DNA from: Limnochorda sp. LNt
Lineage (GTDB): Bacteria; Bacillota; Limnochordia; Limnochordales; Geochordaceae
Assembly: GCF_035593265.1 (NCBI RefSeq)
Contig: NZ_CP141614.1
Span: 930,001-994,000, forward strand
Direction: 5' to 3'
Length of the DNA stretch: 64,000 nt
This document shows, piece by piece, positions 924-37,255 of this stretch; the stretch's first letter is position 1, and each line of letters begins with the position of its first letter. The position numbers and the translations under genes were made by a program. The notes under the pieces are model-generated. The model searched no databases and had not been told where the DNA came from. It saw only the letters and a program-made list of their open reading frames with translations.

Positions 924-2303
924 GTGACGGATCTGCCACCGCTTCAGCCACCGCCCGGGACCCTGGACCTCCTGCCCGATGCCGCATCGGCCCGCAGGCG
1001 CCTCGAGGCCCGGCTGCGGGCGCGCTTCGAGCGCTGGGGCTACCGTGAGGTCGTCACCCCCACCCTGGAGCTCGAGGAGGTGGTCCGCCGGGCGGGCGGG
1101 CAGCTCCCCGCTCGCCAGCTCTACCGGTTCGTGGACCGGGAGGGCCAGGTGGTGGTGCTCCGCCCCGACTGGACCGCGTCGGTGGCGCGGCTCATCGCCG
1201 GGCGGCTCCGAACGGCCCCGCTGCCGCTGCGGCTCTTCTACATCGGCAGCGTCTTCCGGTACGACCGGCTCCGTCCCGACGATCCCCGGGAGTTCGGGCA
1301 GGCGGGGGTCGAGCTGGTGGGCGCCTCCTCCGAGATGGCCGACGCCGAGGTGATGGCGCTGGCCTGGGAGAGCTGCCGCGAGGCCGGCATCGAGGGGCCG
1401 CACCTGGAGGTGGGGCACGCCGGCTACGTCCAGGCCCTGCTCGACCAGCTGCCGGCCACGCTGCGGGCCGATGTGCAGCAGGCCCTGGTGCGGCGAGACT
1501 TCGTCACCTTCGAGGCGTTGCTGGGCCGCTCCGACGTACCGGACCGGGTGGCGCGGCTCTTGGCCGGACTCGTGGAGGCCCGGGGCGACGCCCGTGTGGT
1601 GCGCCGTGCTCTGGACGAGTGCCCCGTGGAGAGCGCGAGGGCGGCGCTGGCCTCGCTCGAGCGGCTCATCGGACACCTCGCCTCGCTGGGCCTGGGGCCG
1701 CACCTGGCCGTCGACCTGGGCATGGTCAAGGACCTGGACTACTACACCGGTGCCATCTTCGAGGTGTACGCGCCGGGCGGCGGCGCGTCGCTGGCGACGG
1801 GAGGGCGCTACGACACCCTGATGGCGCGCTTCGGCCTGCCGCTACAGGCCACGGGCTTCGCCCTGAGCCTGGAGCGGCTGACCCGGGCTCGCCAGCGTCG
1901 GGGTCTCCCGGACGGTCAGCCGCGCCTCGACGCCTGGGTCGTCGCGGGTGACGCCCGCGCAGACGAGGATGGCGGCGCGGGTGCCGTCTGGCAGCTGCTG
2001 CGGCGCTTGCGAGAGGCCGGGCTGGTGGCCGCGCTGGATCCGCTGGCGCGTCCCCTCGAGGAGAGCGTCGAGGCGGCACGCCAGCAGGGTGCCGCCTGGG
2101 TCGTGCTGGCGGACGCGAGGCACCGGGCCGATCGGCTCCGGGTCCGGCGCGTGGACGACCAGGGGGACCATCCCTGGCAGGAGACCGACGCCGGGCGCCT
2201 CGTCGAGCTGCTCCGGTCGATGCGTGCACCCGCCGGACCGTCGCCGGCTGACGGCGAGGACGGCACCACGGGGCGGCCCCGGGCCCATCGTCCTCGTCAT
2301 TGA
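924..2303 (+). CDS. hisZ: ATP phosphoribosyltransferase regulatory subunit HisZ
   Basis: HisZ is a histidyl-tRNA-synthetase-like protein without aminoacylation activity. It pairs with short-form HisG to make the allosterically regulated first enzyme of histidine synthesis. The 459-residue product has the class II synthetase core, with the motif 2 region FYIGSVFRYD near residue 110 and GMVKDLDYYTG near 270. The start is GTG. It lies just downstream of guaA and opens the histidine gene run. A full HisS is less likely because short hisG follows immediately. Confidence 0.9.
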   Translation: MTDLPPLQPPPGTLDLLPDAASARRRLEARLRARFERWGYREVVTPTLELEEVVRRAGGQLPARQLYRFVDREGQVVVLRPDWTASVARLIAGRLRTAPLPLRLFYIGSVFRYDRLRPDDPREFGQAGVELVGASSEMADAEVMALAWESCREAGIEGPHLEVGHAGYVQALLDQLPATLRADVQQALVRRDFVTFEALLGRSDVPDRVARLLAGLVEARGDARVVRRALDECPVESARAALASLERLIGHLASLGLGPHLAVDLGMVKDLDYYTGAIFEVYAPGGGASLATGGRYDTLMARFGLPLQATGFALSLERLTRARQRRGLPDGQPRLDAWVVAGDARADEDGGAGAVWQLLRRLREAGLVAALDPLARPLEESVEAARQQGAAWVVLADARHRADRLRVRRVDDQGDHPWQETDAGRLVELLRSMRAPAGPSPADGEDGTTGRPRAHRPRH

Positions 2304-2364
2304 CCGGGTCCGATGCCCCGTGCTATCGTCTGGTAAGCGCCACAGGGATCTGGAAGGGTTGTCC

Positions 2365-3060
2365 TTGGCCTCGATCGACATGCACCACGGACAGGCCCCC
2401 GACCTCACCATCGCGCTGCCGAAGGGCCGGCTCACCTCCGAGGCCGTCGCGCTGCTGGGCCAGGTCGGCCTCGATGCCAGTGCGGCCGTGGGAGCCTCTC
2501 GTGACCTGGTCACCCTGGACCACGGGGCCGGGGTGCGATTCTTGCTGGCCAAGCCGTTCGACGTGCCCACCTTCGTCGCGGCGGGTGCGGCGGACCTGGG
2601 CATCGTGGGCAAGGACGTGCTGATGGAGGTCGAGCCGGCCGTGGTGGAGCTGCTGGACCTGGGCATCGGGCGGTGCCGGATGCAGGTGGCGGTGCCGGAG
2701 GGCTCCGGCGTGCGTGGCGTCGAGGAGATGGAGGCCCCGGTGCGGGTGGCCACCCGTTATCCCCGCGCCACCCTGGCCTACTTCCAATCGGTGGGGCTGC
2801 CGGCGCAGGTGGTGCGCCTGGATGGCTCCATCGAGCTGGCCCCCCGGGTGGGGCTGGCCGACGCCATCGTCGATCTGGTGCAGACCGGTCGCACGCTGGA
2901 GGCCAACGGGCTGGTCGCCATCTCGACCATTGCCGAGATATCGGGCCGTCTCATCGCCAACCCGGTCCGCTGGAAGCTCAAGTACGATCGCATCGCCCGC
3001 CTCATCTCGGAGATGCGGGGTCTGGTGCCCGTCCGCCCGGTGAGAGGGCGGGAAGGGTGA
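2365..3060 (+). CDS. hisG: ATP phosphoribosyltransferase catalytic subunit HisG (short form)
   Basis: HisG catalyses the first committed step of histidine synthesis, joining ATP and PRPP. The product is about 231 residues, which fits the short form that lacks the C-terminal ACT-like domain and needs HisZ. LTIALPKGRL is near the N terminus and the PRPP-binding segment DLVQTGRTLEANGL lies near residue 170. I chose the TTG at 2365 because GGAAGG lies about 6 bases upstream; ATG at 2380 is the alternative but has no clear ribosome site. A 61-base gap separates it from hisZ. Confidence 0.92.
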   Translation: MASIDMHHGQAPDLTIALPKGRLTSEAVALLGQVGLDASAAVGASRDLVTLDHGAGVRFLLAKPFDVPTFVAAGAADLGIVGKDVLMEVEPAVVELLDLGIGRCRMQVAVPEGSGVRGVEEMEAPVRVATRYPRATLAYFQSVGLPAQVVRLDGSIELAPRVGLADAIVDLVQTGRTLEANGLVAISTIAEISGRLIANPVRWKLKYDRIARLISEMRGLVPVRPVRGREG

Positions 3061-25065: not shown

Positions 25066-26579
25066 ACCCATCCCGAGCTGAGCGTTTTGATGCCGTGCGG
25101 GTCCGCTACGCGCCCAGCCCCACGGGCTACCCCCACGTCGGTGGCATCCGCACGGCCCTTTACAACTGGCTGTTCGCCCGCCATCACGGGGGCAAGTTCA
25201 TCCTGAGGCTGGAGGACACCGATCGGAGCCGCTCCACCGAGGAGTCGGCCCGGGCCATGCTGGAGGGCCTGCGCTGGGTGGGCCTCGACTGGGACGAGGG
25301 CCCCGACGTGGGCGGTCCCTACGGACCCTATCGGCAGACGGAGCGGCGCGAGCTCTACCAGCGCTATGCGTCGCGCCTGGTGGAGGCGGGTCGGGCCTAC
25401 CCCTGCTACTGCACCCCTGAGGAGCTCAAGGCCCGGCGCCAGGAGGCCCTGGAGCGGGGCGAGGCGCCCAAGTACGACCGGCGTTGCCTGCACCTGACCG
25501 ACGCCGAGCGCCGCCGGCTGGAGGCCGAGGGGCGGCCCAAGGCGTTGCGATTCCGGATGGATGACGCGGGCGAGACGGTGGTGCAGGACCTGGTGCGGGG
25601 CGAGGTGCGCTTCGAAAACACCCTGCTCGACGACTTCGTCATCATCAAGTCCGACGGGCTGCCCACCTACAACTTCGCCGTGGTGGTCGACGACCTGGAG
25701 ATGCGCATCACCCACGTCATCCGGGGGGACGAGCACCTCTCCAACACCCCCCGGCAGGTGCAGGTGTACCGCGCACTGGGGGCCGAGCCTCCCGCGTTCG
25801 CGCACCTCTCCATCCTGCTGGCGCCGGACCGCTCCAAGCTCTCCAAGCGTCACGGGGCCCAGTCGGTCGACGCGTTCCGCGAGAGGGGCTACTTGCCCGA
25901 GGCCATCGTCAACTACCTGGCCCTGCTGGGTTGGGGCTACGACGCCGAGCAGCAGATCTTCACCGTCGAGGAGCTGATCGACAAGTTCTCGCTGGCGCGC
26001 GTCTCCAAGAACCCGGCCATCTTCGACATCCAGAAGCTGGAGTGGATGAACGGGTACTACCTGCGCCGCCTCTCGCTGGAGGAGCTGGCGGCACGGGCGC
26101 GCCCCTTCCTCGAGAGAGCCGGGCTGACCGCGCTCATCGAGCGGGAGGCCGAGATGGGCGAGCGCCGGCTGATGCGCGCGCTGGAGCTGTCGCAGAGCCG
26201 GCTGCGCACCCTGGCCGACGTGTCCGAGTGGGTCCGCTACTACTTCGAGGAGACCGTCGACTACGACGAGCGGGCGGCCCGCAAGCACCTGCTCAGGGCC
26301 GGCGTGCCCGAGCTGCTCGAGCGCATCGCCGGAGGGCTGGAGGGGATCGAGCCCTTCGACGAGTCGACGCTCGAGGCCTACTTCACGGCCCTCCGTGACG
26401 AGACCGGCCTCAAGATGGGCGACGTGCTGCAGCCGGTGCGGGTGGCCGTGACGGGCAAAGATGTGAGCCCGGGCATGTTCGAGGTACTGGCCCTGGTGGG
26501 CAAGGGAGCTGCCGCCCGGCGGCTGCGTCAGGCCGCGGCGTGGGCCCGCGAGCGGCTGGCCAGCGTCTCGGCCGGGTGA
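25062..26579 (+). CDS. gltX: Glutamate-tRNA ligase
   Basis: GltX is a class I synthetase of 505 residues charging tRNA-Glu and, with GatCAB present, probably tRNA-Gln as well. The HIGH-type signature is [20 protein letters not shown] near residue 15 and the KMSKS-type loop is SKLSKRHG near residue 260. Anticodon-binding helices follow. ATG 25062 overlaps the mtnA stop. Confidence 0.96.
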
Positions 26580-26596
26580 GCCGGGCGGCTGACGGG

Positions 26597-27412
26597 ATGG
26601 CGCTCGTGCCGACGTGGGCGACCGCCGTCGGCCTGGCCCTCGCCGTGGCGGGCGCGGGTGGCGGCCGGGCGCTGACGCCGGGCGGGCGGTGGCGGCGACC
26701 CTCGTGGGAGCCCTGGTCTTCGGTGCCGGGGGCTGCCGTGGCCGCGCTGCTGGTCGGCTTCTTCGTCTCGGGATCAAGCCTGACCGCCTGGCGCCGGCGG
26801 GTGCGAGGCGCCGTCCGCGCCCGAGGCCATCGGCGGGCCGGGACGCCCGCCAGGTGCTGGCCAACGGCGGCGTCGCCTCCGTGGCCGCGGCTTCGCGGCT
26901 CGTGGCCGTGAGCGGGCTGGCCCGGCATGGGCGTACGACGCCCTGGTGGCCGGTAGCCTGGCCGCCATGACCGCCGACACGTGGGCCACCGAGGTGGGGC
27001 TGGCCAGCGGGCGCACCCCGTCTCCATCATCGGGTGGCGGCCCGTCGAGGCGGGGCGCTCGGGCGGCGTGACGCTGCCGGGCACCGCCGCCGGGACGGCG
27101 GGCGCGGCCCTGATGGCTGCGCTGACGTGGGGTATGCTGGGATCCCCCGCCCTGGCGTGGGGCGCGCTGGTGGGGGGCGTGTCGGGGATGCTCCTCGACA
27201 GCCTCATCGGGGCGGCCTGGCAGGGCCGGTGGCGCTGCCATCGCTGCGGGCGTGCGGTGGAGCGGCCCCGGCCACACCTCCAGACCTGCGCGGGCCCCCT
27301 CCGCCTGGAGGGCGGCCGGCCCTGGCTCGACAACGACGGGGTCAATGCGCTCTCGTCGGTCGCCGCGGGGCTCGTCGCCGTGGCCGCGACGCTCCTGGCC
27401 GGGGCGGCGTAG
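26597..27412 (+). pseudogene. DUF92 (TMEM19-like) membrane protein with multiple frameshifts
   Basis: DUF92 proteins are polytopic membrane proteins; a related plant protein has been linked to phytyl-phosphate kinase activity. Family pieces occur in order but in shifting frames: LALAVAGAGGGRALTPGG, then VAATLVGALVFGAGG, then VAALLVGFFVSGSSLTAWR, then GRDARQVLANGGVASVAA, then AAMTADTWATEVGLASG, then VSIIGWRPVEAGRSGGVTL, LLDSLIGAAWQGRWRCHRC and WLDNDGVNALSSV to the stop at 27412. Breaks lie near 26690, 26728, 26820-26845, 26931 and 27010. Most can be repaired by one base in a G-run. No point nonsense mutations were needed to explain the breaks. It follows gltX directly. Confidence 0.8.
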
Positions 27413-27458: not shown

Positions 27459-28826
27459 CTAGGCGAGGCGGGGCTGCCTCTCCCGGGCCTGGGGAGGCGC
27501 TCCATCCAGCAGCGACAGGGCCGCCTGGCGGTACAGCTCCGACGCCCGGGCCGCATCGCCGCGCCTGGCCATCAGGTCGCCGTGCTCGAGCCGGAGCCTC
27601 CCTATCTCGGACCTCGATCCAAGATGCTCCAGAAGCTGGGCGGCCTGCTCGTAGTGGGCCACCGCCTCGTCCAGGTCGCCGAGGAGGGCGAACACACGGC
27701 CCAGGTGCCAGTGCGCCCGGGCCTTGAGCCCCGGTCGGTCGTGCTCTTGCGCCAGCGCCAGGGCCGTGTAGCCGTGCCGTAGGGCCGGCTCGCGCTGCCC
27801 GATGCTGGCATAGCACCAGCCCAACTCCATGTGGTCGTAGATCATGAACGGGACGTCGCCCAGCGCCTCATGGGAACCCAGGCCCTTCACGAGCGACTCG
27901 ATGGCCTCCTGCCAGCGGCCCAGTCGCTGGTAAGCCAGCCCCATGTTGTGCTGAGCCCTGTTGACCCAGGCCGCGAACCGCAGGCGGATGGCGAGCGACA
28001 GGCTCTGCGTGAAGTACTCGAGCGCCTCGTCCGCCCTGCCCATGTCGAGCGCCGCGAGCCCCAGGCTCGTGAGGACGGGGACGAGATAGCGCTCGCCCAG
28101 CCTCTCCGCCAGCGGGAGGGCCTCTTGCAGGTAAGCCATGGCTTGCTGGGCCCGGCCGGCCTCACGAGCCAGCGTCCCCACGTGGAACAGGGTCTCGTAC
28201 CTGAGCATGCTGTCACCACGGGTCGCCTCGAGGATGACCAGGGCCCGCTGCGCATGATCGTAAGCCGTCTCGAAGCGGCCCTCCTCGTACTCGAGATACG
28301 AGAGCGCCAGTACCGCCTGCACGCGCTCGGGTCCGGGCGCCAGGTCATCCGACAGGCTCAGGGCTGCCGCGATGGCCTCCTGCGCCTCTTCTATCCGTCC
28401 CGACCCGGCCAGGATCCGACCCAGGGTCACCAGCGCGCTGACGGTCAGAGGGGTGCTGCGAAGGGCACGCGCGCGGTCCAGCGCGGCCCGAGCCAGCCGT
28501 TCGGCCTCCGCCGGATTCGCGGCCGCCACGCAGTCTCGGGCTGCCCGGAGCAACCGCGCGATCTCCTGCTCGCCGGCACGGTCGGTCACGGGCTCGGCCT
28601 CCTCCGACGAGCCCACGAGGTACGTGACGGTAACCCCGAAGAATGACGCGAGCTTCTCCAGGACGTGCCGGGTCGGGTTGACGGCCCTGCCCGAGCGCAG
28701 CTTCCACAGGTAGGACAGCGACAGGCCGGTGCCCTCGGCCACCTCCCTCAACGTCCAGCGCTTGCCGTCAGGACGCCTCACCGTCTCGAAAAGGTGGCGC
28801 AACCGCTCCACCACGACGTCATTCAC
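27459..28826 (-). CDS. XRE-family regulator with TPR domain (RRNPP-like architecture)
   Basis: This 455-residue protein joins an N-terminal helix-turn-helix (LREVAEGTGLSLSYLWKLRS, about residues 26-45) to a long all-helical TPR array (about 85-445; repeats such as AALDMGRADEALEYFTQSL and LLGDLDEAVAHYEQAAQLL). The HTH resembles that of EspR-type regulators. HTH plus TPR is the layout of RRNPP receptors such as PlcR, NprR and PrgX, which bind secreted and re-imported peptides. The GTG start has GGGAGGTAGGAG upstream. A divergent 52-residue signal-peptide ORF begins 181 bases away. Peptide sensing is an inference from layout. Confidence 0.8.
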   Translation of the reverse strand: MNDVVVERLRHLFETVRRPDGKRWTLREVAEGTGLSLSYLWKLRSGRAVNPTRHVLEKLASFFGVTVTYLVGSSEEAEPVTDRAGEQEIARLLRAARDCVAAANPAEAERLARAALDRARALRSTPLTVSALVTLGRILAGSGRIEEAQEAIAAALSLSDDLAPGPERVQAVLALSYLEYEEGRFETAYDHAQRALVILEATRGDSMLRYETLFHVGTLAREAGRAQQAMAYLQEALPLAERLGERYLVPVLTSLGLAALDMGRADEALEYFTQSLSLAIRLRFAAWVNRAQHNMGLAYQRLGRWQEAIESLVKGLGSHEALGDVPFMIYDHMELGWCYASIGQREPALRHGYTALALAQEHDRPGLKARAHWHLGRVFALLGDLDEAVAHYEQAAQLLEHLGSRSEIGRLRLEHGDLMARRGDAARASELYRQAALSLLDGAPPQARERQPRLA

Positions 28827-28871
28827 GGGCTCCTACCTCCCTCTACGCCGGGATGTGAACGAGGCGTTGCG

Positions 28872-28877
28872 ACTATA
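28872..28877 (-). promoter_or_regulatory. Candidate -10 element for the XRE-TPR gene
   Basis: On the minus strand the hexamer reads TATAGT, five of six matches to TATAAT, about 46 bases ahead of the start codon. No good -35 at 17 bases was found; TTGGCC lies further upstream at about 22 bases. Confidence 0.4.
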
Positions 28878-28885
28878 GTATCACA

Positions 28886-28897
28886 GCGTGCGCACGC
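28886..28897. promoter_or_regulatory. 12-bp perfect palindrome between divergent promoters
   Basis: GCGTGCGCACGC is self-complementary over its whole length. It lies between the candidate promoters of the XRE-TPR gene and the small secreted-peptide ORF, where a dimeric regulator could control both. Assignment as its operator is inference. Confidence 0.4.
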
Positions 28898-28933
28898 AGG
28901 GCCAAACAGTCTGTTCGTGACGCGCGGCCGCGC

Positions 28934-28962
28934 TTGACCGATTTGGTATGAAATGATACGCT
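28934..28962 (+). promoter_or_regulatory. Candidate sigma-A promoter of the small secreted peptide ORF
   Basis: TTGACC (28934-28939) and TACGCT (28957-28962) are separated by exactly 17 bases in a locally AT-richer stretch. Transcription would start near 28970, about 38 bases ahead of the ATG at 29008. Confidence 0.5.
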
Positions 28963-29007
28963 CGGAGCAGTTTCCGGAGATTCCCTGTAGCGGAGGGGTG
29001 CGGGGTC

Positions 29008-29166
29008 ATGCGGCGGACCTTGGCTATCGTGGCGCTCTTGTTGGGGCTCGTGCTGGCGTCGGTGCCCGCAGTCGCCTCGGGTGGCCTTACGGGAGGCTAC
29101 GCCTTGGCGGGAGGAGGCCGGGTCGTGACGACCGCCGATCCCGGCCTCCCCATCTGGCCGCGCTGA
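29008..29166 (+). CDS. Small secreted peptide, 52 residues (candidate signalling peptide precursor)
   Basis: ATG 29008 has GGAGGGG about 9 bases upstream and a promoter candidate at 28934-28962. The product begins MRRTLAIVALLLGLVLASV and continues PAVAS, a textbook Sec signal sequence with an AVA cleavage site at residues 21-23. The predicted mature part is 29 residues, glycine-rich, ending DPGLPIWPR. It is divergent from the XRE-TPR regulator. Precursors of RRNPP signals have this size and layout, with the active peptide at the C terminus. No family match was recognised, and a truncated larger gene cannot be excluded. Confidence 0.5.
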   Translation: MRRTLAIVALLLGLVLASVPAVASGGLTGGYALAGGGRVVTTADPGLPIWPR

Positions 29167-29371
29167 TGGACGGCCGCTGGCTGGGTCTGTGACGCATCAC
29201 ACCGAGCCGTGCCGGCGGGGCATCCGCTCGGGGTGTTGCCCCTGACGGATAGCGCCCGACCGGCAGTCGGCGCGCCGCCGCTGCTCGGCCCCGGCGGGGG
29301 CCTCGCGACGTGGCCGGCGCGTGGCGCTGCACGGGCCGAGGTGGCCTCCATCGTACGTGCCGGTGCGCAGG

Positions 29372-30358
29372 TCAGCGGTGGAGCCAGACGGCCATCGAGT
29401 AGTAGAGCGGGATGCCGAGGATGACGTTGAAGGGGAAGGTCACCCCCAGCGACAGGGTCACGGGCAGGCCGGGGTTGGCTTCGGGCAGCGCGAGGCGCAC
29501 CGCCGCGGGCGCGGCGATGTAAGAGGCGCTGGCTGCCAGCACGGCGAAGAGAGTCGTCCCGCCCACGCTCAGCCCGATGAGCGATCCGGCCAGCGCGCCC
29601 AGCGCGCCGCCCACCAACGGCATCGCCACAGCGAAGAGCCCCAGGAAGCCTCCCCCCGACGCGAACGCGCTCAGTTGCTGGCCCGCCGTGAGTCCCATCG
29701 CCAGCAGGAAGACGGAGAGGATGCCCGGGAACAGGTCCAGGATGAAGGGGTCCATCATCGCCCGGCCATCCTCCCCGACGAGGGCCCCGACCAGCATGCT
29801 GCCCAGCAGCACCACCGGGCTGGCGCCCAGCAGAGTCTCCCGCAACGCCGGCCAGAGAGCCGGCCCCGCTCTATCCGCGCCGGAGGCCGCGTGGCGCCGG
29901 GCCAGCAGGATGCCGCCGATGACCCCGGGTGCCTCCATCAAGGCCATCACCGCCGTCATGAAGCCCTCGGGGGCGATGCCCCTACGTGCCAGGAAGTTGG
30001 TGGCCGTCACGAACGTGACGACGCTGATGGAGCCATAGTGGGAGGCGATGGCCGCGGCGTTGACCGGGTCCATCCCGCCGAGCCGCACCAGGACGCCGAA
30101 GGCCAGCCCTGGCAGCACCAGCATGCCCAGGACCAGGCCTGCCAGGGCCGTGACGAGGAAGCGGTCGGTGAGGCCCTCCTGCGCGAGTTCGGCGCCTCCC
30201 CGGAAGCCCACGGCCATCAACAGATACAGCGAGGCCCCCGTCACCAGGCCCTTGGGGATGGACAGCTCGGATCGGAGGGCGCCCGCCAGCAAGCCCAGTG
30301 CGAAGAAGAGGATCATGGGCGAGAGCAGGTTGTGCAGGGCCGATGCGAGGAATTCCAT
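29372..30358 (-). CDS. sbtA: Sodium-dependent bicarbonate transporter SbtA-type permease
   Basis: This 328-residue membrane protein has about ten hydrophobic segments in two halves. It carries SbtA-like signatures AAIASHYGSISVVTFVTATN, MALMEAPGVIGGILLARR, ILSVFLLAMGLTAGQQL and AVLAASASYIAAPAAVRLAL. The family imports bicarbonate with sodium. ATG 30358 has AAAGGAG upstream. The start region is preceded by three phased repeats (30375-30410) and then a divergent HTH gene, which suggests a locally regulated unit. It supplies HCO3- plausibly for carboxylases such as the AccAD system, but that link is a guess. Confidence 0.85.
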   Translation of the reverse strand: MEFLASALHNLLSPMILFFALGLLAGALRSELSIPKGLVTGASLYLLMAVGFRGGAELAQEGLTDRFLVTALAGLVLGMLVLPGLAFGVLVRLGGMDPVNAAAIASHYGSISVVTFVTATNFLARRGIAPEGFMTAVMALMEAPGVIGGILLARRHAASGADRAGPALWPALRETLLGASPVVLLGSMLVGALVGEDGRAMMDPFILDLFPGILSVFLLAMGLTAGQQLSAFASGGGFLGLFAVAMPLVGGALGALAGSLIGLSVGGTTLFAVLAASASYIAAPAAVRLALPEANPGLPVTLSLGVTFPFNVILGIPLYYSMAVWLHR

Positions 30359-30374
30359 GAAGTAGTCGGCTCCT

Positions 30375-30410
30375 TTCGTGAAGCACTATTCGTGAACTTT
30401 AGTTCGTATG
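30375..30410. promoter_or_regulatory. Three direct repeats at 14-bp spacing (operator candidate)
   Basis: TTCGTGAA at 30375-30382 and again at 30389-30396, then the degenerate copy TTCGTATG at 30403-30410, are spaced exactly 14 bases apart. They fill the region between divergent sbtA and the HTH gene. The local GC is lower than the surroundings. They are probable binding sites for the HTH regulator at 30478 and would cover the sbtA promoter or leader. Confidence 0.5.
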
Positions 30411-30477
30411 TCGTGGACCGTCAACGGCCCCCGGACTGTCTCTCGGGGCGCCAGGCGGGCGCGTGGGGGGAGGCGGG

Positions 30478-30810
30478 GTGAGGCGCTGGACTTTCCTCAG
30501 CAATCACGCCCAGGTGCTGCTCTGCATCGCGAGGGACCCGTCGGTGACCGCCCGCGAGATCGGCCGGCAGGTGGGCATCACCGAGCGGGCGGCCCAAAAC
30601 ATCATCCGGGACCTGGAGGCGGCCGGGTACGTGACGAAGCAGCGACAAGGCCGTCGCAACCGCTACGCGTTGCACCTGGATCGCCCCATGCGCCATCCGG
30701 CGCAGCGGGGCTTGACGGTGCGCGACCTTCTGGAGATGCTGCAAGATCCGCGGGTGACGGCAGCGCCGTCGCCCGATGAGACGGTGCGACCCGAGCGACC
30801 CGAGGCGTGA
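30478..30810 (+). CDS. Winged-helix HTH regulator, divergent from sbtA
   Basis: This 110-residue protein has a MarR/ArsR-like winged helix (VTAREIGRQVGITERAAQN as recognition region, then LEAAGYVTKQRQGRRNRYAL as wing). A short tail contains GLTVRDLLEML. There are no cysteine metal sites. GTG 30478 is preceded by GGGGGAGG. Divergent from sbtA with phased repeats between them, it most likely regulates sbtA and itself. The signal is unknown. argS begins 31 bases after its stop. Confidence 0.75.
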   Translation: MRRWTFLSNHAQVLLCIARDPSVTAREIGRQVGITERAAQNIIRDLEAAGYVTKQRQGRRNRYALHLDRPMRHPAQRGLTVRDLLEMLQDPRVTAAPSPDETVRPERPEA

Positions 30811-30840
30811 GGCCACGCAGCTTCCGAGGTGAGTGCGGCC

Positions 30841-32850
30841 ATGGACGTCCTACGCTTCGAAGATCTCGTCTACGAGCTGGGTGACGCAACCCGCCCAACG
30901 GTGGTTTCAGGAGCGGTCCCGGAAAACGGGGTGTTGGTTATCCGAGGGCTCGTGACGTTACGCAGCCTCATCGCCCGCGAAGTTGGTGAAGCCGTTGGTC
31001 GCTTGCTGCGCCAGGGCGGCCTCGAGTGGCCCGGCGGCCTCGAGCCCCTGGTGGAGCAGCCCGCCCGCATTGAGCACGGTGACTACACCACCAACGTGGC
31101 GCTCCAACTCGCCCGCCACCTGCGAAAGCCCCCGATCCAGATCGCGGCTCAGCTGGCCGGAGAGCTGCGGACGCTGCCGATGGCTTCCCGGGTGGAGGCG
31201 GCGGCGCCCGGCTTCGTCAACATCTGGCTCGATTGGCGATGGTGGGCGTCTCACGGCACGATGCTCCCTGAGCCGTCCAAGGAGCGCGCCGCCGAGAAGG
31301 TCGTGGTCGAGCACACCTCCATCAACCCCAACAAGGCGGCCCACGTGGGGCATTTGCGCAACGCCTGCATCGGAGATACGCTTGCCCGCCTGTTGCGGCG
31401 CGTGGGGTATCGGGTGGAGGTCCACAACTACATCGACGATCTGGGAGACCAGGTGGCCGATACGGTCGTCGGCATCCTGCACGTCCCGATCACGGGCCGC
31501 TACAGCCGTTTCGGCGACTTCTGCTGGGACGTCTACGCCCGGGTGAGCCAGGCGTACGAGCGTGACGAGGCGCTCAAGGCCCGGCGGGCCGAGGTGCTGC
31601 ACGCGCTCGAAGCCGGAGACAACAACACGGCGTGGCTCGGCAGGCTGGTGGCGGAGCGCGTCGCGCAAGAGCACGTCGCCGAGATGGGCGCGTTCGGCAT
31701 CACGTACAACCTGCTGGTTTGGGAGAGCGACATCGTACGGGAGGGGTTCTGGGCGGCCGCCTTCGAGCAGTTGCAGCGGTCACCCCTGTTCGTCAAGGAG
31801 ACCCGGGGGCGCCTCGCCGGCTGCTGGGTGCTCAAGCAGCCCCAGCAACAAGAAGGCCCTGCCGAAGCGGCCGTCGGACAGGAAGACGAGGCGGGCGACG
31901 ACGAGCACCTGACCGACAAGGTCCTGGTGCGTTCCAACGGCGTGCTCACGTACACCGCCAAGGACATCGCCTACCATCTCTGGAAGTTCGGCCTCTTGGG
32001 CAAGGAGTTTCGCTACCGGCGTTTCGCCCAGGGCTTGTGGACGACGGCGCCGGAGGGCACGAGCCGGCCGTTCGGCCGGGCCAAGCGCGTGCTCAACGTG
32101 ATCGACCGCCGCCAGGAGTACCCCCAGGCGATGGTTCGTCTGGCGCTCCAGGCCCTCGGTTTCGGGGAGGCCGCAGGGGCGGTGCACCATGTCTCGTACG
32201 GCGTGGTCAGCCTGAGCCCGGCCACGGCCGCCCGGCTCGGCATGGACACCTCGGATGGGCGCTCGTCTTACCCCATGTCGGGGCGCGAGGGGATCGGCAT
32301 CAAGATCCGCGACCTGCTCGACCTCATGGAGGCCTCCATCGATCGGGAGCGTTCCCGGCAGGTGGGGCTGTCGAGCCGGGCCATCGCGGCCGGGGCGATC
32401 CGCTACTTCTTGCTGCGCTACAATCTCGCAACCGAGATCGTCTTCGACATGGACAGCGCCCTCGACGTCCACGGCAACACCGGCCCGTACCTGATGTACG
32501 CCCACGCGCGAGCGGCCGGGATCCTGCGCAAGGGCGGCCTGGAGAGCCGGAGCGTCCCGCCGGCTCCCGAGCGCGTGCCCGAGATCTCCCAGGTTGAGCG
32601 GGCCCTGCTGCGGCACCTCGCCGATTGGCCGGACACCCTGGAGATGGCGGCGGTGGAGCTCAACCCGACGCTGGTGACGACGTACGCCTACGAGCTGGCG
32701 CAGCGCTTCACCGACTTTTACGAAAACATGCCGGTGTTGAAAGCACCCGAGCACGAACGGCCTTTCCGGCTCTGGCTCGTCGCCCTCTCCCGCGCCGTGC
32801 TCGCCGACGCGCTGGATGTGCTGGGCCTGCCGGCGCCCGAGCGCATGTGA
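30841..32850 (+). CDS. argS: Arginine-tRNA ligase, atypical
   Basis: This is a class I synthetase with an N-terminal Add-1-like domain (EHGDYTTNVALQLARHLRKP), the HIGH signature in NKAAHVGHLRNACIGDTLAR, a catalytic core, and the DALR anticodon domain (GNTGPYLMYAHARAAGILRK). The HIGH region with HTSINPNKA and NYIDDLGDQ looks more like archaeal/eukaryotic ArgS than the common bacterial type. There are about 50 extra N-terminal residues and an acidic, glutamine-rich insertion (QPQQQEGPAEAA to AGDDEH). The start is uncertain: ATG 30841, GTG 30829, or a later GTG. It may be a second argS in the genome. Confidence 0.85.
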   Translation: MDVLRFEDLVYELGDATRPTVVSGAVPENGVLVIRGLVTLRSLIAREVGEAVGRLLRQGGLEWPGGLEPLVEQPARIEHGDYTTNVALQLARHLRKPPIQIAAQLAGELRTLPMASRVEAAAPGFVNIWLDWRWWASHGTMLPEPSKERAAEKVVVEHTSINPNKAAHVGHLRNACIGDTLARLLRRVGYRVEVHNYIDDLGDQVADTVVGILHVPITGRYSRFGDFCWDVYARVSQAYERDEALKARRAEVLHALEAGDNNTAWLGRLVAERVAQEHVAEMGAFGITYNLLVWESDIVREGFWAAAFEQLQRSPLFVKETRGRLAGCWVLKQPQQQEGPAEAAVGQEDEAGDDEHLTDKVLVRSNGVLTYTAKDIAYHLWKFGLLGKEFRYRRFAQGLWTTAPEGTSRPFGRAKRVLNVIDRRQEYPQAMVRLALQALGFGEAAGAVHHVSYGVVSLSPATAARLGMDTSDGRSSYPMSGREGIGIKIRDLLDLMEASIDRERSRQVGLSSRAIAAGAIRYFLLRYNLATEIVFDMDSALDVHGNTGPYLMYAHARAAGILRKGGLESRSVPPAPERVPEISQVERALLRHLADWPDTLEMAAVELNPTLVTTYAYELAQRFTDFYENMPVLKAPEHERPFRLWLVALSRAVLADALDVLGLPAPERM

Positions 32851-33127
32851 GGGTAGGGTCACCCTCCCCTTTCCCTTCGTCCCCTGCGCCCCTACCGCAC
32901 GGAGCAGCCGAAGGCGTACAGGTAGGCGAGCAGCACCTGGTGGACGAGATAGATTCAGCCGAGCAGCAGCACGAGGCGTCCGCCTTCGCGACGCGGGCTC
33001 CTGGATACGCTGCAGCCTTGGCTACGGCCGCTTTAGGTGAGCACCAAATTGCCCGAAATCCTTTGGGATAGGAATCGTAGAACGGCTGTGAGCCGCCAGC
33101 TCGCCCCAAGAGGAGCCGCGCGAGGTG

Positions 33128-33266
33128 ATGGGTCCCGTGAGAGCCTGGTTTGTGCTGAGCAATCTGGTAGTACAGCTCTTCCTTGGCGCGCTCCTGTTCC
33201 GTGACGTTTTCGGCATGCCTGGTGCGCCAAATGGGGCCGTTATCCTTCTCATCATGGCTCTAGTTA
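33128..33266 (+). pseudogene. 5' part of a small membrane-protein gene split by an insertion sequence
   Basis: ATG 33128, preceded by an AGGAG site, encodes MGPVRAWFVLSNLVVQLFLG and a second hydrophobic stretch (GAVILLIMALV). The frame runs into the insertion sequence at 33267, where it stops within three codons. The continuation is at 34878, in frame if the element and one copy of the 7-bp duplication are removed. Codon use is less GC-rich than that of the neighbours. No family was recognised. Confidence 0.55.
33260..33266. repeat. Target-site duplication, left copy
   Basis: CTAGTTA lies directly before the left end of the insertion sequence. The same seven bases directly follow the right end at 34878-34884. 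Flanking bases differ, so the duplication is exactly 7 bp. Confidence 0.8.
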
Positions 33267-34877
33267 GTGCCTCCTGACAAAATCACTGTCCGTCGTTAGA
33301 GGGGAGTCTGAACCTTTAGCAACCCCAGCTCGTCATGCCGCCCTGTCCGGTCCTGCCCCGGCGGGGGTCTGCTCAGGCGCCTGCCGGGGCCAGGGCCAGC
33401 AGCCGGCGGGCCGCCCGGGTCAGGTTGTGGGCGAAGATGCCCTCCCCGCTCCAGGTCGCCGCCCGCTCGGCGCCCCGATAGCGGCTGCGGTCGAGTTCAA
33501 AGGTGTCTTTGAGATGCGCAATGCGCCCCTCCTGGCCGCTGCGCCAGCGCAGCAACCGCCGAAAGGCCCAGCGTCGCTCGAAAAGTCGACGAGCCCGACC
33601 GCCTCGGGCCGGCAGGGCCACGTGCGCGATGCCCATCGCCCGCAGCGCCGCGTCGTTGGCCCGGCTGCTCATGCCCGGTCGGCGGCCACCGCTCGGGCGT
33701 GGCTCCGACCGCGTGGATGTGGCCCGCCACGGCGTCCACCAGCAAGCTGTCGTCGCTGGGATTGCCGACATGCAGCCGCCAGTGGCTGATGAAGCCCTCC
33801 TGGGTCTCCACCAGGGTCAGCTTGTAGCCGAACTCGACGGGCTTCGAAAGCTTCCCCCGCCGGATGGGGCGCGCATCCGGGTCGAAGAGGCTGACCAGCC
33901 GGTCCGGGATGGTCCGGATGCCCTGCAAGCGAAGCCGGGTCTGCTCCAGCACCCGGCGCAGGCGGCGGGTGTACGTGACCAGACCCTGCGCGAGGGCCCG
34001 GTAACGAGCGCCGACCGCCGGACCGAGCTGTCGGATGCGGCGCTGGACAGCCCGAGCCATGCGCTCGGCCTCCTGAAGCGTCTGCTCGGCCCGCCGAGCC
34101 ACTTCGGCGGTAAGCCGGTCCACCTCGGCCTGGGCCTTCTCCCCTCCCCGGCGAAGCACCTGGCCGATGCGGCGCAGCCGGCGGCGGACCGAACGCAGGC
34201 GGTCTCGGACCGAAAGGCGTACCCCGATGCCGGCTTCCTTGGCCCGGCGCATCAGCCGCGTCAGCACCCGCACCCCGTCGGCCAGCAGGCCCGCGTCGGT
34301 GGGGTGATGGATGTTGGCTTCCACCACCGTGGTGTCCACCCGGATCCGCTGGCCGTGGCGCTTCATCAGCCGCGCCTCCACCAGCTGGGCCATCAGGGCG
34401 TCGTTGAGTTGCTCGATGACTTCCGGACCCAGTCGGTGCGTCAGCTTGATGAGGGTGGTGGCATCGGGCACCTTGTCGGTCAAGCGCAACCGGCAAAAGC
34501 GCCGCCAGACCAGGCTGTCGGCCACTTCCTTGACGAGGGCCTCGAAGCCCAGCCGGTAGCGGCGCTTCAGGTACATCATGCGCAGGTACGTCTCCAGGGG
34601 GATGGTGGGCCGACCCCGCCGGGCCGTGAGCTTGCGCCGGATAGGCTCCAGGAAGCGCTCGTCGTCCAGCAGCCGGTCGATGATGGCCAGCTCCTTGGGC
34701 AGCTCGAAGAGCTGGGGGTCGATGAGGCTTTCGAAGAGGTCCGCCTTGAACGCCACGTTGCGGTCCCGACGCACGATGCCATGCCTCCTGGGGCCGATTT
34801 TAGCATCATTCGGTCTCGGGGAGGAGAGGGGTGAGCCCGTCACGACGGCCTTCTCTGGACGAGTTTATCAGGGGCAA
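33267..34877 (-). mobile_element. Insertion sequence, 1611 bp, ISNCY/IS5-like, with terminal inverted repeats
   Basis: Bounded by the 7-bp direct repeat CTAGTTA. The left end GTGCCTCCTGACAAAATC and the right end (minus strand) TTGCCCCTGATAAACTC match at 14 positions with one gap. Inside is one transposase gene on the minus strand. Length, short imperfect ends and a 7-bp duplication suit the ISDol1-type group of ISNCY, recalled rather than searched. The insertion splits a membrane-protein gene. Confidence 0.85.
33373..34774 (-). pseudogene. DDE transposase of the insertion sequence, frameshifted
   Basis: The GTG start at 34774 has AGGAGG 9 bases upstream. The product has an N-terminal domain (LTARRGRPTIPLETYLRMMY), the first catalytic aspartate in RIRVDTTVVEANIHHPTD, a long helical insertion rich in arginine (about 165-290), HVGNPSDDSLLVDAVAGH, and then loses frame near 33690. 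Two single-G additions (near 33683-33694 and 33671-33676) restore VAADRG and MSSRANDAALRAMG, leading to EGRIAHLKDTF with the catalytic glutamate and the end at 33373. As read, the element would be immobile unless these are base-calling errors. Confidence 0.85.
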
Positions 34878-34884
34878 CTAGTTA
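34878..34884. repeat. Target-site duplication, right copy
   Basis: CTAGTTA directly follows the right inverted repeat of the insertion sequence and matches the left copy at 33260-33266. Confidence 0.8.
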
Positions 34885-35110
34885 ATATCGCAACCCTAGT
34901 AGCTCTTCGGATGCCGGCAACCGACCAGCATCGACGCTTCGAGTTCTACTGGCGCCTTGGGGGCATGGTAGTAGTTGCCGCGGTCGCCGTCCATGCATGG
35001 ATCGATCCCGCTGCGGGTCACGATGTGGCTACCGCGGTCGTTGGCGGCCTTGCGACGGCAACATACCTTTTCGGCCCTGCCTTGGTGCGAAAATGGCGTA
35101 AGGCTTGCCA
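34885..35110 (+). pseudogene. 3' part of the membrane-protein gene split by the insertion sequence
   Basis: After removing the element the frame continues NIATLVALRMPATDQHRRFE, then WRLGGMVVVAAVAVHAWID, GHDVATAVVGGLATATYLFG and PALVRKWRKA. This gives a protein of about 125 residues with four hydrophobic segments. The natural end is unclear because the frame runs on past 35110 into sequence of different character. Lower-GC codons set it apart from the core genes. Confidence 0.5.
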
Positions 35111-35270
35111 CGCAGAGCTAGCTACGGGCCCGTTCTGTACCTCCTGGGCCAGCGCGGCTGCGGTGTCGAGGATGAGTGCCAGCACCTGCTCCACCTCATG
35201 CAGGATTTCGGGGAGCGTACCTGGCGGGGCTACCGCTGTAGAGCCCGTGGCGGAGAGCCGGAGGAGAACG

Positions 35271-35309
35271 AAGCCAGGGAAGGGATGACCGACGGGACTA
35301 TCCCTTCAG
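35271..35309. repeat. 39-bp hairpin-bearing direct repeat, copy 1
   Basis: Matches 36332-36370 at 38 of 39 bases. It contains the inverted repeat GAAGGGAT/ATCCCTTC around a 14-base loop. Copy 2 covers the last codons and stop of the DUF2442 gene, so copy 1 marks where a related gene end once stood. Confidence 0.75.
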
Positions 35310-35399
35310 AGTCCAGGGGCAAATTGGCGCAGGAACCGGTGCTGGGACCTGTCCAGGTCGAGCTGCCCGGGCCTGCCTTCCCGTAGGGCCACCGCTCGC

Positions 35400-35742
35400 A
35401 TGCGCTGTAAGAGGTCCTGGGCAGTCGACGAGGACACCGCGGACCGCCTGATCGCACTGGCCCCGCGGCAGGGCATCCTGGCCGGCGGGGACCCACAGGC
35501 TCTGGCAGCTGAGCCGCCTGGTGGCAACGGCGCGAACCTTACGACAGCGGCTCGCGGCGGCTGAACAGCGCCGAGCGACACCGACCGTCAACGAGGAACA
35601 GATGCGGACGGGGCTCGACGAAGCGCTGCGGATCGTAAATGGGGCAGATGCGGAGGCCTTCCGGCGCCTTGTGCGCGCCTTCGCCCGGCTGGCTGCCCCC
35701 CACCCGTCCCGCCGGCAGGTGCGGGTGGAGCTGGTGCCGGAT
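35400..35742 (+). pseudogene. Remnant of a large serine recombinase, C-terminal tail
   Basis: In shifting frames the sequence reads DEDTADRLIALAPRQG, then LVATARTLRQRLAAAEQRRA and MRTGLDEALRIVNGADAEAF, then RLVRAFARLAAPHPSRRQVR and VELVPD. The coiled-coil, then Ala/Leu-rich segment, then short beta ending is typical of the tail of large serine recombinases. No catalytic domain is present. It abuts repeat copy A, which carries a relic of the tRNA-Glu 3' end. Confidence 0.5.
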
Positions 35743-35820
35743 CCTCGCGCCGGGTGGCACCCGGGGCTCGTTTGTGGTCCGAGAAACGCGACTTGTTGGT
35801 ACTCCCACCGGGGTTCGAAC
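35743..35820. repeat. tRNA-Glu 3'-end relic with downstream flank, copy A (attachment-site-like)
   Basis: This 78-bp stretch matches 37109-37187 at about 90%. Its last 24 bases are, on the minus strand, GTTCGAACCCCGGTGGGAGT plus ACCA, a relic of the T-arm and acceptor end of the tRNA at 37164-37239. The rest of the tRNA is absent here. The repeat begins with a CCGGG/CCCGG hairpin. Duplicated tRNA 3' ends are the usual signature of element integration. Confidence 0.7.
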
Positions 35821-35954
35821 TTCTCGCGTTTCACCGGCGCCTTCTTCGTGTGCCCGCGTAATTGGGCATGCGACACCCCGGGAATGCTTCCCGGATGCTC
35901 GAGCGGCGTGCAGTACCTGCGTGGTAGAATTACCTTCGAGGAGATGAACGGAGC

Positions 35955-36128
35955 ATGGCCTGGCAAGATCTGGTCGAGGTAAACCCCGCCGTCTTAAAAG
36001 GCAAGCCGGTCCTCCGGGGCACACGGGTTCCGGTGCATCTGGTCGTCGGGAACCTGGCCGGGGGCGCGTCTGTCGAGGAAGTCATGGCCTGCACCGATGC
36101 GTCACCCAGGAAAGGTGCGGGCGGGTAG
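35955..36128 (+). pseudogene. DUF433 antitoxin-like gene, 5' fragment
   Basis: ATG 35955 opens MAWQDLVEVNPAVLKGKPVL followed by RGTRVPVHLVVGNLAGGASV. This is the start of a DUF433 protein, often paired with a PIN-like toxin partner (DUF5615). Family similarity ends near 36090. The frame then runs 13 codons into the remains of an opposite-strand DsbA-like gene and stops. The DNA-binding or dimerisation half is missing and no partner toxin is present. Confidence 0.65.
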
Positions 36129-36331
36129 ATGAAGCGCACCTGGCCGGCGTGAACGTCGCGCTCCGCCAGCCAAGGCTGGACCTCCCGGGCGAAGGTGGCA
36201 CAGTGCGGGCAAGCAAAGTCGAGGTAGGCGATCACTGTGACCGGAGTCGACGCTCGGCCCAGGGACCGTTCAAGCACCTCCCAGCGGGCTTCAAGGGGAG
36301 CCGGCGGCGCCTGGGCAGGCCAAAAGATAAA
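36088..36331 (-). pseudogene. DsbA-like thiol-disulfide oxidoreductase fragment
   Basis: On the minus strand the frame reads a membrane-anchor-like GFIFWPAQAPP, then TPVTVIAYLDFACPHCATFA and AGQVRFIYPPAPFLGDASVQ. The CPHC motif marks a thioredoxin-fold DsbA/disulfide-bond protein. Both ends are lost: the 5' end stops at the 39-bp repeat (36332) and the 3' end at the junction with DUF433 near 36090. Confidence 0.6.
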
Positions 36332-36370
36332 GCCAGGGAAGGGATGAGCGACGGGACTATCCCTTCAGGA
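36332..36370. repeat. 39-bp hairpin-bearing direct repeat, copy 2 (terminator of DUF2442)
   Basis: The same 39-bp sequence as 35271-35309. On the minus strand GAAGGGAT pairs with ATCCCTTC, and the stretch is followed by CCCTGGCTTTATCTTTT. This can act as the terminator of the DUF4160/DUF2442 unit whose last codons it includes. Confidence 0.65.
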
Positions 36371-36599
36371 GGCCCTCGATGGAGATGTCCTCGTCAAGGT
36401 CCTCCCAATGAATGCCAATGCCGCCACCGATCCAGCGCCAGTTCCTGCGCTGCTCGGGAGTGGCACGGCTCAACTTTGGGAACCACTCGAGCGGCACGCT
36501 GATGCGTCGACCGTCGAGCAGGTCCACATGCATCATCGCGTCGTCGAACTCGACGCGGACGCCCACAGCATCGTGTAGCTTAGTGGCCAAAGTGCTCAC
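36357..36599 (-). CDS. DUF2442 domain protein
   Basis: This 80-residue protein contains MMHVDLLDGRRISVPLEWFP and GGIGIHWEDLDEDISIEGLL, the full DUF2442 core. DUF2442 proteins commonly follow DUF4160 proteins in compact two-gene units on mobile DNA and are suspected toxin-antitoxin parts, though no activity is established to my knowledge. Its start overlaps the DUF4160 end by 20 bases, so the two are translationally coupled. Confidence 0.8.
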   Translation of the reverse strand: MSTLATKLHDAVGVRVEFDDAMMHVDLLDGRRISVPLEWFPKLSRATPEQRRNWRWIGGGIGIHWEDLDEDISIEGLLKG

Positions 36600-36816
36600 T
36601 CCATCGCCTCAGGAACTCGCTCTCGTGTTCTTCGACTATCTTGCGCAGGCGGGATAGCTCCTGCGCAGAGAAGCCGCGAGACCGGGCCAGGCTGGCGGGC
36701 TTTAGCCAGAACTTGGCATAGGCATCGCCGCGCTCGACGTGGATATGAGGCGGCTCATTGCCCTCGTTGCTGAAGAAAAAGAAGCGGTAGGCCGCCAGCC
36801 TTAACACGGTTGGCAT
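36580..36816 (-). CDS. DUF4160 domain protein
   Basis: This 78-residue protein has FFFFSNEGNEPPHIHVERGD and AYAKFWLKPASLARSRGFSA, the DUF4160 signature with its conserved HIHV histidines. It is the upstream gene of the overlapping pair with DUF2442. ATG 36816 was chosen because the family begins MPTVLR. TAAGAT at about 30 bases upstream is a possible -10. The pair is intact amid gene debris. Confidence 0.8.
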   Translation of the reverse strand: MPTVLRLAAYRFFFFSNEGNEPPHIHVERGDAYAKFWLKPASLARSRGFSAQELSRLRKIVEEHESEFLRRWSEHFGH

Positions 36817-36837
36817 GACGTCTCGCCTACATCTTAG

Positions 36838-37105
36838 CACGGGATGGTCCGTACTGTGCCGGATCTTTGCGTGGCGCCTGGAGGGCCGCTCGTACCAGTG
36901 GATCCGTGACCGGCTCAAGGCCGAGGGCGTACCGGCCCCCGGGGCACTCGCGGGCGCAACAGCACCCTGCACACCCTGCTGGGCGAGGACTACATCCTGA
37001 CCTCTGCGGGGTATGCTGCGTGCGATGAGCACTACCGCGAGGGTCCAAAACCGCGTGGTGTACGGTACAAGCCCCGAGAGGAGTGGATCGTTGAGCCTCG
37101 AACAC
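36838..37105 (+). pseudogene. Remnant of a large serine recombinase, recombinase-domain part
   Basis: One frame reads LCRIFAWRLEGRSYQWIRDR then LKAEGVPAPG. After a shift near 36950 another reads RNSTLHTLLGEDYI and later GPKPRGVRYKPREEWIV. This is the pfam Recombinase domain of large serine integrases (R-IF-L-G-SY-I---LN--G-P-P), cut off just before the usual THPAII segment. Catalytic N terminus and C-terminal tail are missing. It directly abuts repeat copy B and the tRNA-Glu gene. Confidence 0.65.
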
Positions 37106-37108
37106 ACC

Positions 37109-37187
37109 CCTCGCGCCGGGTGGCACCCGGCGGCTCTCTTGTGGTCCGAGAAACGCGACTTGTTGGTACCCCCACCCGGATTCGAAC
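37109..37187. repeat. tRNA-Glu 3' end and flank, copy B (attachment-site-like)
   Basis: 79 bp matching copy A at 35743-35820. Here the right part is the real 3' end of the tRNA-Glu gene. The left part carries CGCCGGGTG/CACCCGGCG, a perfect inverted repeat with one central base that could serve as the tRNA terminator on the minus strand. Confidence 0.7.
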
Positions 37188-37239
37188 CGGGGTCTCATGG
37201 CTGAGAACCATGTATCCTAGGCCGCTAGACGATGGGGGC
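37164..37239 (-). tRNA. tRNA-Glu (anticodon CTC)
   Basis: 76 bases including encoded CCA. The acceptor GCCCCCA pairs with TGGGGGT (one G-T pair). The anticodon stem CATGG/CCATG encloses TTCTCAG, giving anticodon CTC for GAG codons. The T-loop GGTTCGAATCC is standard. Its 3' end is the target of repeated integration (copies A and B). Confidence 0.93.
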
Positions 37240-37255
37240 ACCGCAGCCGGGGTGG

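Follow-up and report, generated by a model that had tools for sequence, protein, structure and literature searches.

A conserved HTH-TPR regulator with a divergent small-peptide gene in Limnochorda sp. LNt, probably an RRNPP-type signalling cassette of high-GC Bacillota

Our analysis of a 64,000-nucleotide stretch of Limnochorda sp. LNt (contig NZ_CP141614.1; hereafter the window) revealed a real, conserved and coding receptor-peptide pair, which occurs three times in two related high-GC subsurface Bacillota. We put at about three in four the probability that the two genes form an RRNPP-type cassette for peptide signalling. It is most likely a cell-to-cell signalling switch, and most likely a lineage-restricted, autoregulating RRNPP-type pair belonging to a new lineage-restricted subfamily. 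An RRNPP-type pair had already been proposed in an earlier note made from the letters of the window, and that interpretation is supported by the conservation of the pair and by the HTH and nine-TPR architecture of the regulator; export, processing, import, binding, regulation and, with them, signalling are what we infer for it.

The candidate pheromone receptor is an XRE-type regulator of 455 aa, read from a GTG start on the reverse strand (27459-28826). Pfam recognises an HTH_3 domain at its N-terminus (28.0 bits against a cut-off of 23) and many TPR matches, among them TPR_12 (E 3.4e-33) and TPR_2 (E 2.8e-23, positions 1-31 of 34), and a single-sequence AlphaFold2 model (mean pLDDT 87.3) contains an HTH plus nine pairs of TPR helices, in agreement with the HTH-plus-TPR layout first read from the window. 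The top Foldseek matches of this model overall are eukaryotic LGN/Pins TPR proteins, and the best prokaryotic ones are Rap receptors (6t46, 8rst, 4i1a), several of them pheromone-bound; because LGN/Pins outrank Rap, part of the likeness to Rap is shared by TPR proteins in general. Compared with the PDB by sequence, the regulator matches the Rap protein 6t3h (E 7e-6), and its HTH is closest, among solved structures, to EspR (E 6e-9). A search for close homologs in 41 genomes, that of the window and 40 relatives, yielded two: one, 54% identical, in G002, which represents a different genus of this family, and one, a paralog at 50% identity, elsewhere in the window's own genome. The three receptors measure 455, 476 and 469 aa, and invariant residues make up 47-66% of TPR6-8 as against 21-34% of TPR1-5.

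Divergent from the regulator, with its ATG 181 bases from the regulator start as previously described, lies the ORF of a predicted secreted propeptide of 52 aa, MRRTLAIVALLLGLVLASVPAVASGGLTGGYALAGGGRVVTTADPGLPIWPR (29008-29166, forward strand), for which Pfam returns no match. A homologous divergent short ORF stands beside all three regulators (at +182 in the window, +181 at locus L029 and +174, with GTG, at locus L030), and receptor and propeptide genes are direct neighbours everywhere, 173-181 nt apart. The propeptides of L029 (MRRIAAALLLAVLLVLAWVPSFTLGVAGDGYASAASSRIAPMAQDPGSDSWPL) and L030 (MKRLVATVLLAVVLVLGLVGTGTLWIDDGTASAAAGRIVPLRDPGGEGPFPF) are 53 and 52 aa long, pairwise identity among the three is 37-51%, and all follow a common plan of N-terminal RR or KR, hydrophobic core, A-x-A, DPG and an aromatic-Pro-X end. 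Invariant residues are A32, A34, R38, D44-P45-G46 and P51, and the C-termini read WPR, WPL and FPF, meaning that the motif DPG...[W/F]-P-x is present in each peptide. This outcome runs against the refuting condition named in the earlier note, a small ORF or C-terminus without conservation beside orthologous regulators. The window peptide alone, used as query, recovered the G002 copy genome-wide at E 3e-4. A three-row peptide profile, built from the same three sequences that it recovers, was run on 14 genomes of the order and returned the three cassette places with E values from 1e-25 down to 1e-29; no other match in those genomes fell below E 0.01, and the peptide occurs there only beside these regulators.

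Export of the propeptide was judged by heuristics, which find in all three the RR/KR start, a 12-residue core with a mean hydropathy of 3.2-3.4 and the conserved A-x-A. These features are consistent with the Sec signal claimed in the earlier note, but the AVA cleavage motif claimed along with it (residues 21-23) is probably wrong, as it is missing from both relatives, whereas the A-x-A eleven residues further on is conserved (ALA, ASA and ASA at residues 32-34). Cleavage after residue 34 is therefore more likely, and the probable signal peptidase site in the window is Ala-Leu-Ala at codons 32-34 (29101-29109, forward strand). The predicted secreted tail GGGRVVTTADPGLPIWPR (29110-29163, forward strand), which keeps the invariant R38, D44-P45-G46 and P51 and whose processing is likewise putative, has counterparts in ASSRIAPMAQDPGSDSWPL (L029) and AAGRIVPLRDPGGEGPFPF (L030), all of 18-19 aa. 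In known systems the mature pheromone is a short C-terminal piece of the propeptide (PMC10075063), and by analogy the pheromone here is probably the C-terminal part of the tail, DPGLPIWPR or shorter.

It could be argued that we are dealing with a conventional XRE-TPR regulator, repressing or activating, and that the peptide is its output, with a function of its own (bacteriocin-like, in the cell envelope, or as a small membrane protein), and not its ligand. A regulator divergent from its target is a common arrangement, the hydrophobic core might serve as a membrane anchor, and a ligand role for the peptide is a prediction. Yet conservation reaches the very C-terminus of the peptide and includes the A-x-A, as expected for a cleaved signal, and the receptor model shows the same nine-TPR layout as peptide receptors already known. 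Moreover, no immunity, modification or export gene adjoins the peptide gene, which stands alone in the window and at L029 since its downstream neighbour is convergent in both. We consider a peptide that is output and not ligand unlikely, though worth keeping in mind.

The genes around the pair differ among the three loci, and the pair behaves as an accessory cassette. Genes for a glutamyl-tRNA synthetase, a DUF92 protein and a spermidine-synthase-like protein are contiguous in G002 and G003; in the window, the interval between the latter two has been opened by about 10 kb (27459-37250) that include the pair. The adjacency of the two flanking genes in G002 and G003 marks 27459-37250 as a variable region, and this insert also contains a Sbt_1-type transporter, a MarR-like regulator, an argS-like gene and a transposase-like gene. 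The DUF92 gene of the window (26540-27412) looks frameshifted, its C-terminal part (26981-27412) corresponding to positions 135-250 of PF01940; it is intact, at 281 aa, in G002 and G003, and the window copy is either a pseudogene or a sequence error.

Among 398 genomes sampled from the phylum, two had the regulator family, and one congener of each carrier genome gave no hit for it; the three examples of the pair all come from a single bacterial family. Outside that family, a scan of genome contigs for relatives of the regulator gave TPR-region matches only, plasmids gave generic TPR proteins only, and viral contigs gave none. In a second alternative, the regulator would sense another peptide, a protein or a metabolite, and linkage would account for the retention of the adjacent ORF, coding for a small secreted protein. 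TPR domains do bind many partners, and the best structural matches of the regulator are protein-binding eukaryotic TPRs. Linkage alone is insufficient, however, because the pair is kept at three loci amid differing neighbours and the peptide was never found without the regulator in the 14 genomes of the order, and we regard such an arrangement as very improbable.

The small ORF is coding, as identity is lower at the third codon position than at the first and second in all three pairwise comparisons (identities at positions 1/2/3 of 0.54/0.58/0.42, 0.49/0.53/0.31 and 0.55/0.71/0.35). This comparison, although made on the same protein alignment, is a fairer test than a shuffle of nucleotide columns, whose result (0 of 2000) is biased by an alignment built on protein. 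The three loci agree in peptide length and in the region of the start, and each has a purine-rich ribosome site; in the window this site is GGAGGGG (28992-28998, forward strand), 9 nt before the ATG and called good in the earlier note, and its counterparts in the relatives are GAGGGG and GAGGGGGG. A simple signal-peptide filter was passed by only three of the 372 short frames in the window, one of which is the peptide ORF, and with the homologs beside related regulators and the coding pattern this is more than chance. That the ORF is untranslated and the region conserved for a regulatory role of its DNA or RNA, as might be thought from the conservation of boxes in the upstream intergenic DNA itself, has a negligible chance of being true against the codon-position pattern and the constancy of the length, the start region and the ribosome site.

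In all three intergenic regions there are two TATAGT-like boxes, spaced by about 75 bp. The box near the regulator start, GACTATAGTA, occupies the same place at every locus, and the regulator-proximal candidate operator of the window is GACTATAGTATCACA (28871-28885), which contains the palindrome ACTATAGT. A second TATAG-type copy is flanked by a shared TTGAC on one side and by the place expected for the -10 of the peptide gene on the other, and lies 78 bp from the first at L029 and 74 bp at L030. Its form in the window, the peptide-promoter-proximal candidate operator TATGAAATGATA (28948-28959), about 74 bp from the first, is a degenerate copy of TATAGTGATAT/TATAGTGCTAT and the weakest among the three loci. 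The shared TTGAC is part of a candidate sigma-70-type promoter of the peptide gene (28934-28962, forward strand) composed of TTGACC (28934-28939), a spacer of 17 nt and TACGCT (28957-28962). A promoter candidate had been suggested for the small ORF; TTGAC recurs at the aligned place in both relatives, and a generic consensus scanner made no call at 28934-28962. Without mismatch, ACTATAGTANNANA occurs in the window's genome at the two cassettes only; CTATAGTRNTA occurs once each in G000 and G002, both times at a cassette, and is absent from G001 and G003, relatives that lack the cassette. A regulon search by exact boxes gave no sites beyond the cassettes and no target genes, and boxes private to the cassette fit autoregulation.

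In the proposed mechanism, the product of the small ORF would be a Sec-exported propeptide; a first cut, probably following residue 34 of the A-x-A, and further trimming would leave a short pheromone from the C-terminal end, around DPGLPIWPR. Its import would fall to an oligopeptide transporter, and the 17 SBP_bac_5 matches in the genome make such peptide importers plausible. Once inside, the pheromone would bind the divergent regulator at its nine-TPR domain and alter the contact of the HTH with the paired boxes of TATAGT type in the intergenic region; at the least, the output would be control of the peptide and regulator promoters. The two paralogous pairs of the window's genome allow a simple test of specificity, as their peptides diverge after DPG.

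A separate HTH-TPR family (L069-L097, including L095, G000:C1:839600-840883) is class-wide, usually with one copy per genome and generally without an adjacent peptide, and served as a control: a convincing divergent signal-peptide ORF was found beside two of its 28 scored members, compared with three of three regulators here, and nothing convincing was found downstream. In two class-level genomes, a small signal-peptide ORF beside a regulator of this kind looked like part of a further pair. One is a 49-aa ORF of G030 (L007:673-822, reverse strand) that ends in DPGPPHIL, divergent from a regulator at 955-2265 (forward strand); it has no relative beside orthologous regulators. The other, of 74 aa, belongs to G016, a distant member of the class (L013:3013-3237, forward strand, divergent from a regulator at 1480-2820, reverse strand; the same locus as L069), and carries two copies of ARMSIPPIKPF, reminiscent of propeptides in which the pheromone is repeated. 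As further pairs we rejected both (L007/L073 and L013/L069), which do not recur among the 28 scored members and are kept as leads.

RRNPP_detector applies five criteria (PMC10075063): a receptor of 250-500 aa, a TPR HMM match at E < 1e-5 over more than 65% of the model, a propeptide of 10-100 aa, a Sec signal by SignalP, and direct adjacency of the receptor and propeptide genes. Four of the five (receptor length, TPRs, propeptide length and adjacency) are found in the pair, and the fifth, Sec export, is indicated by heuristics. Surveyed across complete bacterial genomes, recognised RRNPPA receptors belonged to Bacilli with a single genus as exception (PMC9765709); a detector of wider reach and a structural phylogeny reported Bacilli and Clostridia (PMC10075063, PMC12700828). 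The stem 'Limnochord' is absent from the main texts of the latter two papers, to which the check was confined, and our literature search gave nothing pairing it with RRNPP, an earlier listing in a supplementary table being possible. We think it rather probable that the cassette represents a new RRNPP subfamily beyond the surveyed groups, in a deep-branching high-GC class of Bacillota (apparently Limnochordia), with an EspR-like HTH and nine TPRs, a DPG-[W/F]-P-x pheromone, an accessory two-gene cassette, and two non-identical copies in one genome as possible separate channels. In such a class, a conserved pair would widen the known range of peptide quorum sensing to include the lineage, and may serve as an outlier in deciding whether the ancestral receptor had five TPRs or nine.

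Among known systems, NprR-NprX of Bacillus (clan B) has the HTH and nine-TPR layout predicted for the receptor described here (PMC12700828). In both, a short Sec-type propeptide (here a predicted one) adjoins the receptor; NprX is unrelated by eye to the propeptides of the cassette, and sequence similarity does not extend to NprR, no NprR chain being among the PDB matches at E <= 1e-5. The gene order also differs, as nprX lies downstream of nprR and is not divergent. Rap-Phr, likewise of clan B, shares a nine-TPR receptor and gives the best prokaryotic fold match, but Rap has lost the HTH (PMC12700828) that our regulator keeps. The DPG motif is widespread in mature peptides of AimR-AimP and of Paenibacillaceae subfamily 08, in clan C (PMC12700828), a parallel with the invariant DPG of the three peptides that may be coincidence. 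Unlike in those peptides, DPG is followed here by 6 further residues, and AimR and AloR of clan C have degenerate TPRs, whereas the regulator gives strong Pfam TPR matches. The likeness to EspR of Mycobacterium (matched chains of 123-153 aa) is limited to the HTH part and implies no peptide partner; EspR has no TPR domain. Finally, PlcR-PapR, with whose peptide the earlier note compared the small ORF, combines an HTH-TPR receptor with a short secreted peptide, as the cassette is predicted to do. PlcR has a five-TPR fold (PMC12700828) as against the nine TPRs of our model.
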